From contig NZ_AOIS01000036.1 in NCBI RefSeq assembly GCF_000337495.1, forward strand, positions 81,692-145,691: a DNA stretch of 64,000 bases. Direction: 5' to 3'. Below the pieces are notes generated by a model that was not told the DNA's origin, ran no database searches, and worked only from the letters and a program-made list of their open reading frames with translations. Of this stretch, positions 15,126 through 22,628 are shown piece by piece. Both the position numbers and the translations under genes were made by a program. Position 1 is the first letter of the stretch. Every line of letters starts with the position of its first letter. The DNA comes from Haloterrigena salina JCM 13891 (lineage in GTDB: Archaea; Halobacteriota; Halobacteria; Halobacteriales; Natrialbaceae).

Positions 15126-15133
15126 TTTAAATA
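15126..15133 (+). promoter_or_regulatory. TATA box of the pseudopilin-like operon
   Basis: TTTAAATA lies 23-30 nt upstream of ATG 15156, the spacing expected for a leaderless haloarchaeal transcript. This supports the choice of 15156 over the in-frame upstream start at 15060. Confidence 0.55.
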
Positions 15134-15155: not shown

Positions 15156-16157
15156 ATGGACTGGGAGACACCCGTCGACGCCTGGTACGTGTGGCTGGGC
15201 GCCAGTATCGTTAGCCTCGCTCTCGCCGGCGTCGTCCTCGCCTTGCCGACGGGACCGCCGCCCGACGCCGAGGGCGCGACGAACGCGATCGAGGAGACGA
15301 CCGCGAGCAGCTACGAAGCGTCGTCGACCCTCGAGCACGACGCCGACGCGATCAGAATCGACGGGAAGACGGTCGCGTTGCGCAACGAACACGGGGTCAG
15401 TCGCTCGAGTCTCGCGTACGGCCAGGTCGTCGCCGTCAACGGCGACGAGCGGCTCGAACGCCTCGTCTACGGCGAGTCGTTCGCGACGGTGTTCGAATCG
15501 GAACTCGAGGACGCGGACGCGAACGCGGCGACCGCGTTCATGGACCGCGTCGCCGACGCCGACGAGAACACCGCCGGCGAGTGGCTGACCGCTTCGGACG
15601 AGCTAACCGTTCGACAGGTCACCGTCGAGCCCGACGAGCTGCCGGAGGTACGAGTCCACGGGACCGACCACGAAGACTGGATACTCGACGGCCATCGTTC
15701 CCTCCCGAAGGAACTGGCCGCTACGTACGAAGGTGACGAGACGCCGACGGTCACGTACACCGTGACCGGTACTGCTCCCGTCGAACCCCGCCTCGTAGCG
15801 CCACACGAGTCCGTGGCCGTCGGCTACGAGGCGGAGTGGACGACGACGCACACGGACTCCGATACCGTCCGAACGGATCTCGATTCACACCTCGTCGATG
15901 GGGAGCGGATCGAAGGAACCCGTTCGTCGGGTACTGATACCGAACGCCCCGACGAGGAGTTCTGGATCGGCGTCTACCCGCTCACCGTTACTGCGGAGTT
16001 CGGTTCGGAAACGTGTGAAACGACCCTCGAGAGCGCGACGACCGCCGATTCCGTCTGCCCGGCCGTCACCGCCACCGACGAGCGCGCGGCCGAACTGGAC
16101 TGGATCGAACGAAACGACGAGACGGGGAACTACCATGTCACGCTCGCGGTCGTCTAG
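15156..16157 (+). CDS. DUF7283-like membrane-anchored protein
   Basis: A 333-aa acidic protein with one N-terminal transmembrane helix (about residues 12-32) and a large outward-facing domain rich in Thr, Ser and acidic residues. The start (DWETPVDAWYVW) and the PTGPPPDA segment after the helix resemble the haloarchaeal DUF7283 family; that label is from memory. It is the first gene of a four-gene coupled operon of single-anchor exported proteins. In other haloarchaea such genes sit near TadA/PilB-type ATPases, but none is adjacent here. A late Cys pair (residues about 290 and 305) could form a disulphide. Exact role is unknown. Confidence 0.8.
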   Translation: MDWETPVDAWYVWLGASIVSLALAGVVLALPTGPPPDAEGATNAIEETTASSYEASSTLEHDADAIRIDGKTVALRNEHGVSRSSLAYGQVVAVNGDERLERLVYGESFATVFESELEDADANAATAFMDRVADADENTAGEWLTASDELTVRQVTVEPDELPEVRVHGTDHEDWILDGHRSLPKELAATYEGDETPTVTYTVTGTAPVEPRLVAPHESVAVGYEAEWTTTHTDSDTVRTDLDSHLVDGERIEGTRSSGTDTERPDEEFWIGVYPLTVTAEFGSETCETTLESATTADSVCPAVTATDERAAELDWIERNDETGNYHVTLAVV

Positions 16158-16608
16158 GGGCCAGACGGAGCCGGTGGCGGCGCTCGTTGCGGTCGTCGTC
16201 ATGGTGATCGCGCTCGGCCTCTACAGCGGCTTCCTCACCGACGTCCTCGGGGACCGCACCGATCGCTCGCCCGAGACGTCCGCGATCGATCGGATCTGGG
16301 CCGACGTCTCCCACGGCAGCACCTTTGCAGCTCACCGACCGATCGGGCTGGACGACGTCGAACCGGATTCGCTCCCGCAGGGACGGAACGTCCACGTCGA
16401 GATCACTGCGGTGACCGACGACGGCGATCGGGAGGTCGTCGCGACGGAACAGTTCGGGACGGACGGGACGCCGGTCGCCGACCCAGAGGGACCGCCCGCC
16501 GACGGGTCCGGGATCGAGACCGGCGTGGCGGAACGGCCCGTTCCCGTCGAAGTCTCCCCCGGCGACGTTCGCGGCGGTACCCTTCGGGTGGAGGTGTGGG
16601 CCCCGTGA
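16135..16608 (+). CDS. DUF7284/7285-like pseudopilin-type protein
   Basis: A 157-aa protein beginning with a basic, short leader (MSRSRSSRGQTEPV) followed by one hydrophobic helix (about residues 14-31), the layout of class III (prepilin-type) signal peptides, then an acidic exported domain. The RGQ-TEP junction resembles a PibD processing site. It overlaps the preceding gene by 23 nt and the following by 4 nt (GTGA), implying translational coupling. The in-frame sequence upstream of 16135 is antisense-like and not used. It is probably a minor pilin-like component; the DUF label is from memory. Confidence 0.75.
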   Translation: MSRSRSSRGQTEPVAALVAVVVMVIALGLYSGFLTDVLGDRTDRSPETSAIDRIWADVSHGSTFAAHRPIGLDDVEPDSLPQGRNVHVEITAVTDDGDREVVATEQFGTDGTPVADPEGPPADGSGIETGVAERPVPVEVSPGDVRGGTLRVEVWAP

Positions 16609-17558
16609 GATCGGACCGCGCCGTCAGCACCGTCCTCGACGTCGCGTTCGCGCTGCTGCTGGTCAGCGCGAGCATCCTGCTGCTCAGCCTGTATCTGACC
16701 ACTACCGACGGTTCGCTCGAGGAAACGCGGGCGGACCGAACCGCCGAAACGCTCAGCGGGTCGACGGTCGCCGTCAGCTACGATCTCGAGTCGATCGCGG
16801 AAAGCGACCGCTACGAGGAGCCGGAGACCGTCGACGACTACGAACGGACGACGTACGGCTCCGCGACCGACTTGCTCGCGGAGGCGGCGGTCGCGAACGC
16901 GACGATCGGCGACGGCCGATTGATCCGGTACGCGGACTCGTTCGCCGATAGCGTCGCCGCCAGCGTCGACGGCCGGTTCACCGGTTCGAACCGCAACGTC
17001 TATGTCGTCGCCAGCTGGCGCCCCTACGAGGACGCCTCGATCAGGGGGGAGGTGACCGCCGGCCAGCGACCCCCGCCGACCGCGGATACGACCGCGGCGA
17101 CGACGACCGCCTCGAGCGGAACGCCCGCTCTCAACAGTTCAGAGTTGGCGACAGCGTACGCCGACGAGGAAGCGGTCGACACGCTCGCCGAACCGATCGC
17201 TCGCTCGATCGTCCGCGGCTACTTCCCGCCCGAGCGAACGCAACTGACCCTCGAGCGGCGGGGACTCGACCGAGCCGTCACGACGACTCACTACCTCGAA
17301 CTGGCCGATCGTCTCGATCCGGATCACGACCTCGAGCGAGACGCCGGTCCGCTGCGGCGATCGGACGCCCGGGCCGACGACGCCAACGAGGTGCTGATCG
17401 CGGGCCTCACCGAACTGATCGCCGACGACCTCGGGTCGGGGCCGATCGGTGACGAACTCGACGCGATCGGCGACGACGAGGCCGAACTGGAAGCGTTCTT
17501 CGAGGAAACCATCGCTCCCAGCGACGTCGACATTACGACGTACACGTGGGAAGAATGA
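16605..17558 (+). CDS. DUF7284/7285-like pseudopilin-type protein
   Basis: A 317-aa protein with the N-terminus MRSDRAVSTVLDVAFALLL, which closely resembles haloarchaeal prepilins (charged leader, then RAVST and a hydrophobic helix to about residue 30). The exported part contains a Thr/Ala/Pro-rich linker (about 155-185) and an acidic C-terminal half. I chose GTG 16605 because it overlaps the upstream stop in GTGA; GTG 16596 is also in frame. Its ATGA overlap with the next gene keeps the operon coupled. The role is inferred only from architecture. Confidence 0.78.
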   Translation: MRSDRAVSTVLDVAFALLLVSASILLLSLYLTTTDGSLEETRADRTAETLSGSTVAVSYDLESIAESDRYEEPETVDDYERTTYGSATDLLAEAAVANATIGDGRLIRYADSFADSVAASVDGRFTGSNRNVYVVASWRPYEDASIRGEVTAGQRPPPTADTTAATTTASSGTPALNSSELATAYADEEAVDTLAEPIARSIVRGYFPPERTQLTLERRGLDRAVTTTHYLELADRLDPDHDLERDAGPLRRSDARADDANEVLIAGLTELIADDLGSGPIGDELDAIGDDEAELEAFFEETIAPSDVDITTYTWEE

Positions 17559-20500
17559 CAGGAAAACGCACACGAACGACGGTATCGATCGACGATCGCG
17601 CTCGAGTCCCCTTCGCGATAATCGGGGTATTGCTGCTGGTGACCAGCGTGACGGTCGTCGGCGTCCTCCAGATGCGCGGCGGACCCGAGACGGAGATCGA
17701 CGAGACGCTCGCGATGGAGCGGACGGAAGCGGCCGTTCAGAGCGAACTCCGCGGCGCCGTCGTCGATGCGACCCACCGGGCTGCAGCCCAGCCGGTAACG
17801 ACATCCGACCTCGACGCGCTCGAGGGCAACCAGACCGAGACGTTCGAGACGTACCTCGAGTTGTTGATCTACCTCGAGGCGCAGGAGTCGCTGTCGGCCG
17901 CCGGCCAGATGACCGGCGACGTCGAGACGACGGTTTCCATCGGCGGAGACGTTCCCGATGATCCCGACCGCGCGATCAGGACCGCCGACGACCGAATCGA
18001 CGTCGCGGAGCGAGAGGGCGGTAACGGACTACTCGAGGTGACGCTTGATCGAGTGACGATCACGCTCGAGGACGGCGATCGCGTCGTCAGCGAGCGGACG
18101 ATAGACGATCTCACCGTCACCGTCGGGACGCCGATCCTCGAGTTACAGGAGAAGACCCGGGAGTTCGAGACGATGCTCGACGAAGGATTCCTCGATGGCG
18201 AGGTCACCGAGTTCGAAAACATGGCCCAGAAGACGGCCATGCGACTCTATCCGATGGCGTATTTCAAGTCGTTCATCAATCGGATGGACAAAGGGACGGG
18301 TGGCGAAGATCTGGGTCAGGGTTGGACCTTCGACGAAATTCTCGAGAACAATCACACCGAAGTGATGGCGAACGACGCCATCTTCGGCGTTCAGGAGGAG
18401 GTGTTCGGCGAGGACGCAGTCGATCCGTACGCTGACAGGGTGATGCGGCCGGCGTGGGCGTGTTTCGCGGCGGACATGCTGGAAACGATGGCCAGCAACG
18501 ACGATGATGATAATGAGAAAAGTGACGATGGATACCAGGCGACAATATCCGTCACAGACAGGTTAGGTAACGGAATTCACGATGCGACCGTCTTCGTCGA
18601 CGGAGAAAAGCGGGGGACAACGGATCCTAGTAACGAGGTTTCGTTCGAGCTAGCGGAGAACGGGACGCACTCGGTCGTCGTGATCGCAGATGACTACGAG
18701 CGATTCGAGCAGCGTATCCGGTTTTCCGAACGGGACTCTCGAGACCGCGTCGAACTCCGCCCGTCTACCGACCGAACGATCACCGTCTACGATCCGTCCG
18801 GAGAGCCGGTCGACGGCGCCGACGTCAACGTCTGGGTGGACGACGAACTCGCGTACGCGACGACGGGCGCCGACGGAACGATCGCTCTCGAGGGCCTCGC
18901 GATCGACGACCGAAGCGAGCTCACGGTCGAAATATTCGCGGACGGATACGAGGACGGATCGGAGACGGTCGAAATCGATCGGTCCCACGCCGCGATTTTG
19001 ACGTCGGCAGGCGACGCCTCGCTCGACGATCTCGAGGACAGTGCGGGACTGAACAGCTACTTCGAGGACGATCCGAGCCTCAAGGACGCGGCCTGCGAAG
19101 ACTTCCGTGAGTATCTCTTCGGCGACAAAGACGGCGATCTCCCGGACGCGCCCTCGACGACCGAGCTCGTCGACGGCATGTTCGGTGAGATGAACCCGCT
19201 GACGCAGAACGAAACGGTCGAACCGAACGACATGGCCGACATCGCCTACTACGAGCTGATCGGCATCCGAGATCTCTCGACAGTGTTGGACGACCTCCCC
19301 AGCGCGATGAATCCCGAGGACATCGACGAACCGATCGGTTACACCGAGGGGTTCGAGTCGCGGATCGAGAACGGCGACTTCATCGACGATATCTACGACG
19401 TGACTGTCGACCGATCGGACGATGTCTCCTACGGGTCGCTTTCCGCGAACAGGAGCAGTTCGTTTTCCGACTACGAGTACAGTCATTCGGTGTACGATTC
19501 CCGCGGCGTTACCGACATCGACGTATCGTTGTCGCAGGACTGGCGGACTACCGACGGTGCGTACACCAATCGTGATCTCCACAGTCTCACGATCGATGTC
19601 GACGTCGAAATTCAGGAACGATCGGTCTTCGAGAACGCGACGTGGAACGGAACCGACACGAAAACCATCGACCGGTCGCCCGAAACGCTCCCGGTCACGA
19701 TCGAGGTCGATATCGATGCAGATCTCGTCGACGAGCTCGACATCGATCGAAGCGAGATCGAGGATGATTTCGAGGCCGGCACTGGATACGCGAGCCGAGG
19801 CGATATCACCGGCCTCTCGGATCCGGCCAACTTCGAGCACGTCGTGACCGACTCCCTCGAGACGATGCTCGAGGTGAACGCGCTCGATTCAGACGGCGAT
19901 CTCGAGTCTCAGATCGAAGCGGATCTCGGCGATTCGATCCGCATCTCGAGTATTCCGTCGACGAACGAGAGTTCCACCGGGGCGATATCCGTCGCGTTGG
20001 ATATCCGCTCCGGAGTTCTCGGAGCGGACTCCGCGAGTTACGACGTCGAGGATCTCGAGGCCAGTTCGAATCTCGACAGAGCCGAACTCGAAGAGTGGCT
20101 CGAGGACGATCTTTACCTGGTCAACGCGTACGTCAAGAAGGAGACGAACGTGATCGAGCAACCGCGAGTGGAGTTTCTGCGCAGTCCGTCGCCATTCAGA
20201 GAGCTGCACGACGAGATCAAAGCCGTCGAAGACGAACTCGTGGACACGGCGTCGTACGACAACGTTCCGGACCTCGTTCGAATGGAAGTACGAAACGCTT
20301 ACTTCGAAACGCTCACCGGTCGACTCGACGAGATGGCGGATTTCCACGAGGAAACGGTCGGCGAGTTCGACGACGCGATGTCCACGAGCGACGGCGCGCT
20401 CGACGACTCACTCGATATCGTACAGGAGGTCTTCGCTGGCGACGTCGAGACGGGAAGCGGGGAACTCGAGGGCTCGGAGCTCATGGAAGACCTGGAGTTC

Positions 20501-21088
20501 GACGTCTCCGGTTCGCCGACGTACATGGACCTCGAGACGGTCGACGACGACGAGGTACCGTCGGTTCGGCCGCCGAACTCCACGATCATGGACAACGATG
20601 TCGACGGCGAGCACGCGGCGCTCGGAGTCAAATACGGACAACGACTGCCGACACCGGGGCTCCCGCTGGTACCGTGGCCGCCAATGCTGTACGTCCTGCA
20701 GGTCAACAGCTACAACGTCGACCTCCAGGGCGAGTACTCCCGCTTCGAAGTGAGTGCAACCGCGGGCGATCCGGTCGACGGCGAGGGAACAACGTACGTC
20801 CGCGATCGGATGGACGTCGAAGTCGATCTCGGCGGCGATGCGCCACAGAAGATCGGCGAAGTTGAACCGATCACGTTCGATACGTCGCTCGAGATTCTGA
20901 TCGCTATGCCCGGCATGATGCCGATGAAGTCAGGTGCACCGCCGAATACAGGGGACCCATCGTTCGGTGAAAATATTGGGCTCAGTAAGATGTTAAAATC
21001 TCTGAGAGAGTCCCTCAATAATGAGGAGACTGTAATATTGGGTCCCGAAAAATCGACTGACGAATACGGTGATACTGGTCCTCGATAA
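17555..21088 (+). CDS. Giant DUF7286-like exported protein with inserted Ig-like domains
   Basis: An 1177-aa protein with one N-terminal transmembrane helix (about residues 20-40) preceded by basic residues, then a long acidic exported region. The N-terminal and C-terminal parts resemble DUF7286 (label from memory). Residues about 325-480 look inserted: two consecutive beta domains of the carboxypeptidase-regulatory/PEGA type, with the signatures DATVFVDGEKRGTT and GADVNVWVDDELAYATTGADGT, joined to the core by a Asp/Asn/Glu-rich linker. The C-terminus (from about 20,950) shifts to lower GC. It starts in an ATGA overlap with the upstream gene. It may be the large scaffold or tip of a pilus-like system. 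Confidence 0.82.
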   Translation: MTGKRTRTTVSIDDRARVPFAIIGVLLLVTSVTVVGVLQMRGGPETEIDETLAMERTEAAVQSELRGAVVDATHRAAAQPVTTSDLDALEGNQTETFETYLELLIYLEAQESLSAAGQMTGDVETTVSIGGDVPDDPDRAIRTADDRIDVAEREGGNGLLEVTLDRVTITLEDGDRVVSERTIDDLTVTVGTPILELQEKTREFETMLDEGFLDGEVTEFENMAQKTAMRLYPMAYFKSFINRMDKGTGGEDLGQGWTFDEILENNHTEVMANDAIFGVQEEVFGEDAVDPYADRVMRPAWACFAADMLETMASNDDDDNEKSDDGYQATISVTDRLGNGIHDATVFVDGEKRGTTDPSNEVSFELAENGTHSVVVIADDYERFEQRIRFSERDSRDRVELRPSTDRTITVYDPSGEPVDGADVNVWVDDELAYATTGADGTIALEGLAIDDRSELTVEIFADGYEDGSETVEIDRSHAAILTSAGDASLDDLEDSAGLNSYFEDDPSLKDAACEDFREYLFGDKDGDLPDAPSTTELVDGMFGEMNPLTQNETVEPNDMADIAYYELIGIRDLSTVLDDLPSAMNPEDIDEPIGYTEGFESRIENGDFIDDIYDVTVDRSDDVSYGSLSANRSSSFSDYEYSHSVYDSRGVTDIDVSLSQDWRTTDGAYTNRDLHSLTIDVDVEIQERSVFENATWNGTDTKTIDRSPETLPVTIEVDIDADLVDELDIDRSEIEDDFEAGTGYASRGDITGLSDPANFEHVVTDSLETMLEVNALDSDGDLESQIEADLGDSIRISSIPSTNESSTGAISVALDIRSGVLGADSASYDVEDLEASSNLDRAELEEWLEDDLYLVNAYVKKETNVIEQPRVEFLRSPSPFRELHDEIKAVEDELVDTASYDNVPDLVRMEVRNAYFETLTGRLDEMADFHEETVGEFDDAMSTSDGALDDSLDIVQEVFAGDVETGSGELEGSELMEDLEFDVSGSPTYMDLETVDDDEVPSVRPPNSTIMDNDVDGEHAALGVKYGQRLPTPGLPLVPWPPMLYVLQVNSYNVDLQGEYSRFEVSATAGDPVDGEGTTYVRDRMDVEVDLGGDAPQKIGEVEPITFDTSLEILIAMPGMMPMKSGAPPNTGDPSFGENIGLSKMLKSLRESLNNEETVILGPEKSTDEYGDTGPR

Positions 21089-21121: not shown

Positions 21122-22459
21122 TTATTCTGGTTCGAGTGTGCTGATAACACTACCATTTCCAGAGTTATATGTGAACACCACGATATCGCTGAGAACTGCA
21201 TATCCTCTGATACGACCACCGATTAAGTCAATGTGGTCTGTTGTATGAGTTGACCATTGTCGTTCCCCGGTTTTAGGATCAAGAGCATCTAACTGGACAT
21301 ATCCAAAATCACGCCAAACGAATAGCGTGTCCTCTGAAACAAACAATCTGCGACCAGTCGGTCCAGAAGGAAGTGCTTCTGCCTTCCAAGATTGTGGCTC
21401 TTCGCCACTTTGCAATTCGCTTGTAAAAACGGCTAGCTGATCAAATACCCCCGCTGAGTAAATGATTTCATTTGCGATAGTCGGAGCCCGACCAGCAATG
21501 ATAGAACTGTCGTCATCATAATCGTTATTGTAGGAGACAACAACTTCTTCCTCTCCTGTCTCTCCATCAATCGCCAGAACCGTATCGAGTTCGTGCGTAT
21601 AGACTGTCCCACCATGGACCAGTAGTTCTCTCCCGGTATCGATAGTACCAGACGGAGAATACGCCCAGATCTGCTCTTCTTTCTCGACATCGAATCTCAC
21701 TACTTCGTAGTCATGTCCACTGTTCGTTTTGTGTGATACATAGAAGGAACCATCACTACCGATAGCAATATCTTGAACCGCATTTACTCGTTCCTCCCAA
21801 ATTATACTCCGCTCTTCAATGTCGACAGCGTATAGTTTTCCGTCGTTATGGACGTAGACGATTCCATCGTAGACACGAATGTCGCCAGAGTATAGCGAAC
21901 CGAGTTCAACTGACCATAAGACGTCTCCAGTCTCGGGTTTCAGCGCATAGAGGGTTTCAGTGAGAAAGTACACGGCGTCGTCAGTTACCGCTGGCGTCGT
22001 CGGTTCCCACTGCGGATTTGGAGGTGTTTCCGGTGGCAGTTCTGGTTCGTACGTCCACTCAATGTCTCCAGTCGTACGGTCGATCGCACGGAGTGTTGAC
22101 ATCTCGTCCGCGACGTAGACGAACCCGCTACCGACGACGGGTCCCGAAACCTTACCGTCTTCAATTTCGACCGTCCACCGCTCCTCGAGCGGCCCGTCAG
22201 GCCCGCTCCACTCGTCGGTAACCATTCCGTTGTTCGCGGAGAACCGTGCCATCGGCCACGAGTCGCCGCTCGAGCCGTTGTGACCGCCGCCGGTCTCATT
22301 TTCGTCAGGTTCCTCGCCGGTACCATCAAGGCTTGAACTGTCGTTTTCGTCGTCCGAATCGTCGTTACCCGTACAGCCGGAGAGGCCGGCGATACCGACC
22401 GATGCACTGCCGCAGGCTGTGAGCCACCGTCGGCGCGTCGATGTCGATCGTCGGTCCAT
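21122..22459 (-). CDS. PQQ-like beta-propeller lipoprotein
   Basis: A 445-aa secreted protein. The N-terminus has a Tat-type motif (STRRRWL) and a lipobox GLSGC with Cys29 as the likely lipid anchor, followed by an Asp/Glu/Gly/Ser-rich linker to about residue 75. The rest is a beta-propeller with repeats of the kind VYVADEMSTLRAID, VYFLTETLYALKPETG, VYVHNDGKLYAVD and DTVLAIDGETGEE, as in PQQ-enzyme/BamB-like propellers. No catalytic dehydrogenase residues are evident, so binding is more likely than catalysis. GC is clearly lower than the neighbours and A/T-ending codons are common, a sign of transfer. An ATTATATATTT TATA element lies just upstream of ATG 22459. Confidence 0.85.
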   Translation of the reverse strand: MDRRSTSTRRRWLTACGSASVGIAGLSGCTGNDDSDDENDSSSLDGTGEEPDENETGGGHNGSSGDSWPMARFSANNGMVTDEWSGPDGPLEERWTVEIEDGKVSGPVVGSGFVYVADEMSTLRAIDRTTGDIEWTYEPELPPETPPNPQWEPTTPAVTDDAVYFLTETLYALKPETGDVLWSVELGSLYSGDIRVYDGIVYVHNDGKLYAVDIEERSIIWEERVNAVQDIAIGSDGSFYVSHKTNSGHDYEVVRFDVEKEEQIWAYSPSGTIDTGRELLVHGGTVYTHELDTVLAIDGETGEEEVVVSYNNDYDDDSSIIAGRAPTIANEIIYSAGVFDQLAVFTSELQSGEEPQSWKAEALPSGPTGRRLFVSEDTLFVWRDFGYVQLDALDPKTGERQWSTHTTDHIDLIGGRIRGYAVLSDIVVFTYNSGNGSVISTLEPE

Positions 22460-22628
22460 CGTGTACTCCAAATATATAATTAAACTAACTAAGTGTAACG
22501 GAAATAGCCGATAGTGCTAACCGAAGCAAATTCGGCTTGAGACCAGTCTCGGCTGCAGGCTCTCGAATGGGGATGTCGTTCGAACCCGGCCCAACAGAAA
22601 ACGAGAACAGAGTTCGATCAGCGGCGAG

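Follow-up and report, generated by a model that had tools for sequence, protein, structure and literature searches.

The window, a stretch of 64,000 nucleotides of Haloterrigena salina, contains a cassette of four genes on the forward strand, which lies about 97-103 kb into its contig (C36) and whose order, by Pfam assignment, is DUF7283-DUF7285-DUF7284-DUF7286. The first gene (15156-16157) encodes a DUF7283 protein of 333 residues (PF23954, E 1.7e-50), the second (16135-16608) a small pilin of the DUF7285 family (157 residues; PF23956, E 2.5e-30), the third (16605-17558) a DUF7284 pilin (317 residues; PF23955, E 2.2e-82), and the fourth (17555-21088) a giant exported protein of the DUF7286 family (1177 residues; PF23957, E 2.7e-113). 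All four frames are full length and retain the motifs of their families. As had been noted in an initial annotation of this DNA, the genes overlap (by 23 bp between DUF7283 and DUF7285, by GTGA at 16605-16608 between DUF7285 and DUF7284, and by ATGA at 17555-17558 between DUF7284 and DUF7286). The same annotation had described the products as acidic proteins with one N-terminal helix, and indeed their pI values are 4.05-4.36 and each has a single, N-terminal hydrophobic segment, at residues 9-34, 9-39, 5-35 and 16-43, respectively. A genome-wide search showed DUF7283, DUF7284 and DUF7285 to be single-copy in H. salina, and the three genomic matches to DUF7286 are fragments of one gene, that of the window. 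A search of the literature found no paper that names DUF7283-7286.

A TATA-like box, TTTAAATA (15126-15133, forward strand), is seen in the sequence about 27 nt 5' of the DUF7283 start and is a candidate for the cassette's own promoter in its separated state (see below). The box also precedes both cassettes of Natronorubrum texcoconense at about equal distance. A TATA-like word likewise stands before DUF7283 in 35 of 67 other cassettes, which rules out a promoter peculiar to split cassettes. At the other end, a low-GC gene on the reverse strand (21122-22471), convergent with DUF7286, encodes a PQQ beta-propeller protein with a lipoprotein-like signal (PF13360, 8.5e-25). A similar frame occupies the same site in an N. 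texcoconense locus (L052), so that the gene is found with the cassette in two genomes; its membership in the system is only putative.

Canonical prepilin leaders are present in only two of the four products, DUF7285 (RGQTEPV, within SSRGQTEPVAALVAV) and DUF7284 (DRAVSTV, within RSDRAVSTVLDVAFALLL), and it is for these two that the earlier proposal of prepilin-like leaders in at least two products holds. The same division runs through the families: ahead of the helix, a FlaFind-like motif is found in 55 of 71 DUF7285 homologues and 54 of 76 DUF7284 homologues, and is rare in the other two families (1/75 for DUF7283 and 0/68 for DUF7286). DUF7286 has instead a conserved but non-canonical motif, DRG/A-R-V-PFA-I/L (DRARVPFAIIG in the window protein), of which R15, P19 and F20 are invariant across 56 homologues. 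Judged as type IV pilins, by a [KR][GA] leader directly upstream of one N-terminal helix, DUF7285 and DUF7284 therefore qualify, DUF7286 shows only its non-canonical motif, and DUF7283 has the single N-terminal helix without a prepilin leader. A match to the archaeal prepilin peptidase (PibD) family is encoded on contig C14 of the H. salina genome.

Behind its N-terminal helix, DUF7286 has a large alpha/beta ectodomain, for which an AlphaFold2 model was partly confident (pLDDT 71.6, pTM 0.57). Comparison of this model with the PDB by Foldseek gave no match at E <= 0.001, nor did a profile search of PDB sequences support any known adhesin fold. The weak transthyretin-like Foldseek matches that were seen fit an insert of about 145 residues (residues 336-480; 18560-18994, forward strand) in which Pfam recognizes carboxypeptidase-regulatory/PEGA-like, that is, transthyretin-like, domains (PF13620, 8.6e-11; PF08308, 3e-4). 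The insert is filled in only 2 of 56 aligned homologues, the window protein and that of N. texcoconense (L052). The model of DUF7283 was good (pLDDT 82.1); it too gave no Foldseek match in the PDB at E <= 0.001, and a relationship to the archaellum proteins FlaF/FlaG was therefore unsupported. Homologues of DUF7283 are mostly 150-190 residues long, and about 295-359 residues long in many Natrialbaceae, where, as in the window protein, an extra beta-rich half is found at the C-terminus.

Across the whole genome, six matches to the T2SSE ATPase family were found, on contigs C10, C24, C27, C47, C54 and C63. None lies on the contig of the window, which bears out the earlier observation that no assembly ATPase flanks the set and rules out that an adjacent one had been overlooked. 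Judged by sequence comparison and by the general character of these families, the C10 match is a PilB3-like pair, the C27 match an archaellum locus and the C47 match a second FlaI-like gene; C63 encodes a large PilB4-like ATPase together with pilins of its own, C54 a divergent pair and C24 a PIN-domain ATPase. On C63 (L100:8046-16903), pilC and a number of small prepilin-like genes come after a gene for a PilB ATPase of 1314 residues, and this is a second complete, PilB4-like pilus locus in H. salina.

It is an ATPase of the C54 type that directly precedes DUF7283 in most other genomes. The C54 pilB gene (C54:46449-48392) is the sole H. salina copy of the type that accompanies the four families elsewhere, so that the distant ATPase that had been postulated, and that a genome search was to find, has been located. 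Its product has an intact Walker A motif (GTRGAGKT), and the gene is followed by one for a polytopic protein that we call PilC on the basis of position, hydropathy and the literature, since it has no Pfam match and, in what were shallow alignments, its profile did not resemble those of the genome's other PilC/FlaJ proteins. The DUF7311-pilB-pilC genes are flanked by a CDC48-like AAA gene on one side and, on the other, by an orc1/cdc6 gene that has repeats around it. The ATPase pair is about 46-50 kb into a contig of 181 kb. Because both cassette and pair are thus well inside long contigs, contig ends do not explain their separation, and in tetranucleotide profile the window matches C54 (r 0.991); an assembly artefact at contig ends was ruled out on these grounds. 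The orc1/cdc6 gene directly follows pilC (L101:12366-13550) and has on both sides repeats of 28-35 nt of the type AACAGCGGAACC/T..GTGGG, with a GC content of 50% (L101:12256-14490); this is probably a replication origin next to the motor genes. A single N flanked by duplicated stretches within the DUF7311 gene (L101:8141) is probably a scaffold join, which leaves the length of that gene uncertain.

Cassette and C54-type ATPase are distributed together almost perfectly. Among 145 genomes of Halobacteria, 106 have DUF7284 and 105 have the C54-type ATPase, the latter count omitting one weak match of 115 bits (G002); both are present in 104 and neither in 38, with two exceptions of one kind and one of the other (Fisher p ~2e-31, a statistic that ignores shared descent). 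DUF7286 is present in 111 of the 145. The pattern varies within genera: in one genus (g2), cassette and ATPase occur together in four genomes, and seven of the listed ones are without either. Of the exceptions, G121 has its cassette on a 4-kb contig that starts inside pilC, and in G010 DUF7284 was unrecognised and DUF7286 is present. The third, G045, is a genuine orphan: DUF7284-DUF7286 are kept beside a cetZ-like gene (L055), and the three T2SSE-family ATPases of that genome include none of the matching type. Since G045 keeps its cassette all the same, cassettes can outlive their motor or use another. The four families do co-occur outside H. salina, all four being present in Haloferax volcanii, for example, and the initial annotation, which had offered the lack of such co-occurrence as grounds for its own dismissal, therefore survives that test.

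The usual order at these loci is DUF7310 (a coiled coil), DUF7311, pilB, pilC, DUF7283, DUF7285, DUF7284, DUF7286, frequently preceded by a divergent cetZ gene and followed by genes for a DUF5791 protein and an epimerase. A C54-type pilB lies within about 6 kb of the pilins in 96 of the 106 genomes with DUF7284, in agreement with the earlier statement that the families are usually seen with TadA/TadC-type genes. Among 80 named loci of GTDB genomes, 65 have it within reach, and several of the remaining loci are contig ends. The ATPase type has a CxC..C..C N-terminus in 68 of 76 cases. In two loci a gene for a HerA/DUF87-like ATPase lies just upstream of DUF7310-DUF7311-pilB (L119:11285-12343 and L120:7838-8764), and genes of similar size occupy that position in several other Natrialbaceae regulons.

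This arrangement is that of the pilB2/C2 type IV regulon of haloarchaea that has been linked to cetZ2 (PMC9856176, 2023), with which it shares, in most genomes, cetZ, DUF7310, DUF7311, pilB, pilC, pilins, a small conserved gene and a sugar epimerase gene. The proteins of the window belong to the four families that come after pilC there, and the cognate PilB is present in single copy; the identification rests on shared neighbourhood. Thus, the view of the set as an orphan encoding an uncharacterised appendage is not upheld: it is the cassette half of a widespread and described regulon. According to PMC9856176, Natrialbales often or usually have pilB2 outside the regulon, and the cetZ2-adjacent form is tied to Haloferacales and Halobacteriales only. 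We found no cetZ-like gene beside either the window cassette or the C54 pair, the cetZ2 neighbourhood being usual only outside Natrialbales. Our results depart from the published picture in that the missing half has now been located in H. salina and in that a full cetZ-adjacent regulon is present in Natribaculum breve (L161:1-23288), which we take to belong to the Natrialbaceae. Intact regulons are also found elsewhere, in many genomes of Natrialbaceae genera.

In H. salina the linkage usual for the regulon is broken, with the cassette on C36 and its pilB-pilC on C54, and since other members are split too, such linkage is not a defining requirement. The C36 cassette is flanked by a gene for a bat-type regulator, beside phytoene synthase (crtB), on one side and by argZ on the other. 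In N. texcoconense (G116) this cassette recurs with the same genes on either side, at 53% identity in DUF7283 and 62% in DUF7286; another cassette is located elsewhere in that genome, and the sole pilB-pilC of the C54 type is on a third contig. Other split genomes are G120, G046, G069, G033, G117 and G124, together with one of two systems in G141. The break point is after pilC in some and after DUF7283 in others, and in G057 and G087 the two halves adjoin but are divergent. Two different cassettes with one matching pilB-pilC are present both in N. texcoconense (L052 and L053) and in G077 (L056 and L057).

Trees built by quick searches from pilB and pilC (motor) and from DUF7284 and DUF7286 (cassette) agree for most unsplit loci and conflict for several. 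The motor data reject the nesting of G033 and G141b seen in the pilin tree (p-AU 2e-98) and a sister relationship of H. salina (G000) and G116 apart from G120 (p-AU 3e-4), and the pilin data reject the motor clade (p-AU 3e-60), although these exact values are not to be relied on, given that the groupings were picked after the trees had been seen and the searches were quick; the likelihood gaps, 62 to 329 units, are the safer measure. Given this conflict and the presence in some genomes of two cassettes for one motor, cassettes appear to have been exchanged. A modular evolution of archaeal motors and pilin sets has already been put forward in general form (PMC4858521, PMC6491452).

We consider it likely that these four genes constitute the pilin cassette of the PilB2/C2 regulon for haloarchaeal type IV pili, parted from its motor and driven in trans by the PilB2/C2 encoded on C54. 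Because the motor genes that normally stand directly in front are on a different contig, the set represents a known pilus system with separated halves and no unknown appendage. We infer processing, filament assembly, subunit roles and adhesion as follows. PibD, encoded on C14, would remove the leaders of DUF7285 and DUF7284, and PilB2 would hydrolyse ATP to power assembly of the pilins on the membrane platform PilC2. DUF7285, the best candidate for the major subunit, would probably make up most of the filament, with DUF7284 as a likely minor subunit. DUF7286 would probably be a large tip or minor subunit, carrying an adhesin-like insert in the H. salina lineage, and DUF7283 would be a non-cleaved, membrane-anchored accessory protein.

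Alternatively, a different PilB/PilC of the cell, either the C10 pair (PilB3-like) or the C63 pair (PilB4-like), might have acquired the cassette, or several of them might serve it. There is precedent in H. volcanii, in which PilB3-C3 rescues the loss of PilB1-C1 (PMC6491452), and both the orphan cassette of G045 and the conflicts between motor and cassette trees are in keeping with such a change of partner. We nonetheless regard it as unlikely, because cassette and C54-type ATPase have been kept jointly in 104 genomes, including all eight that are fully split. G045 might also be called on to argue that a cassette separated from its motor, as in H. salina, is a decaying remnant left behind when the motor was lost from the site. 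This we consider very improbable: the four frames are full length with their motifs, N. texcoconense keeps the full set at the identities given above, and the motor persists elsewhere in the H. salina genome.

A different question is whether what is assembled is a long pilus at all. One small pilin-like subunit next to one very large exported protein without a relative in the PDB would suit a short pseudopilus, a piston like that of a type II secretion system, by which DUF7286 is presented or secreted. Most loci, however, have no linked gene for a secreted substrate, and the archaeal relatives of the clade have been described as pili (PMC4858521), so that we give this interpretation little credence.

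Separation of halves in a PilB2/C2 pilus has a parallel in H. volcanii, in which the PilB3/C3 motor and the pilins PilA1-6 are encoded apart and work in trans (PMC4858521, PMC6491452). The PilB3 operon, however, is without pilin genes and uses PilA encoded elsewhere, whereas in H. salina a whole four-gene cassette that normally follows the motor has been separated from it. Judged against the text of PMC4858521, the ATPase type as a whole has the features of subclade 4F (Makarova et al. 2016), namely a Cys-rich N-terminus, an intracellular coiled-coil protein and an FtsZ-like neighbour; PMC6491452 assigns H. volcanii PilB2 to 4C. The system also resembles bacterial Tad pili (TadA/TadC, TadE/F/G) in its TadA-like ATPase (TIGR03819, 139 bits, below cut-off) and in combining small pilins with a large exported protein of one helix, but no homology of DUF7283-7286 to Tad proteins was found with Pfam or NCBIfam.

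The cassette is thus a real and well-conserved set of pilus components, and a rearranged member of a known system, not a new one. As far as the literature searched shows, four things are new: which DUF families compose the cassette, where split genomes keep the missing half, that motor and cassette trees conflict, and that DUF7286 of this lineage carries a transthyretin-like insert. Pilin partners are now assigned to a haloarchaeal pilus motor for which we found no experimental study, and the notion that the full regulon is missing from Natrialbales is corrected. Motor and pilins can become separated and enter new combinations, and because in split genomes the two are separately deletable, these genomes allow a direct test of motor-pilin pairing. 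Finally, we suggest, tentatively and as one possibility, that in Natrialbaceae the PilB2/C2 motor and the pilin cassette may be independently inherited, exchangeable modules. One motor would then drive alternative cassettes (N. texcoconense has two), each with a distinct giant DUF7286 at the tip, of a fold absent from solved structures, and the type of filament might be changed by gain or swap of a cassette.
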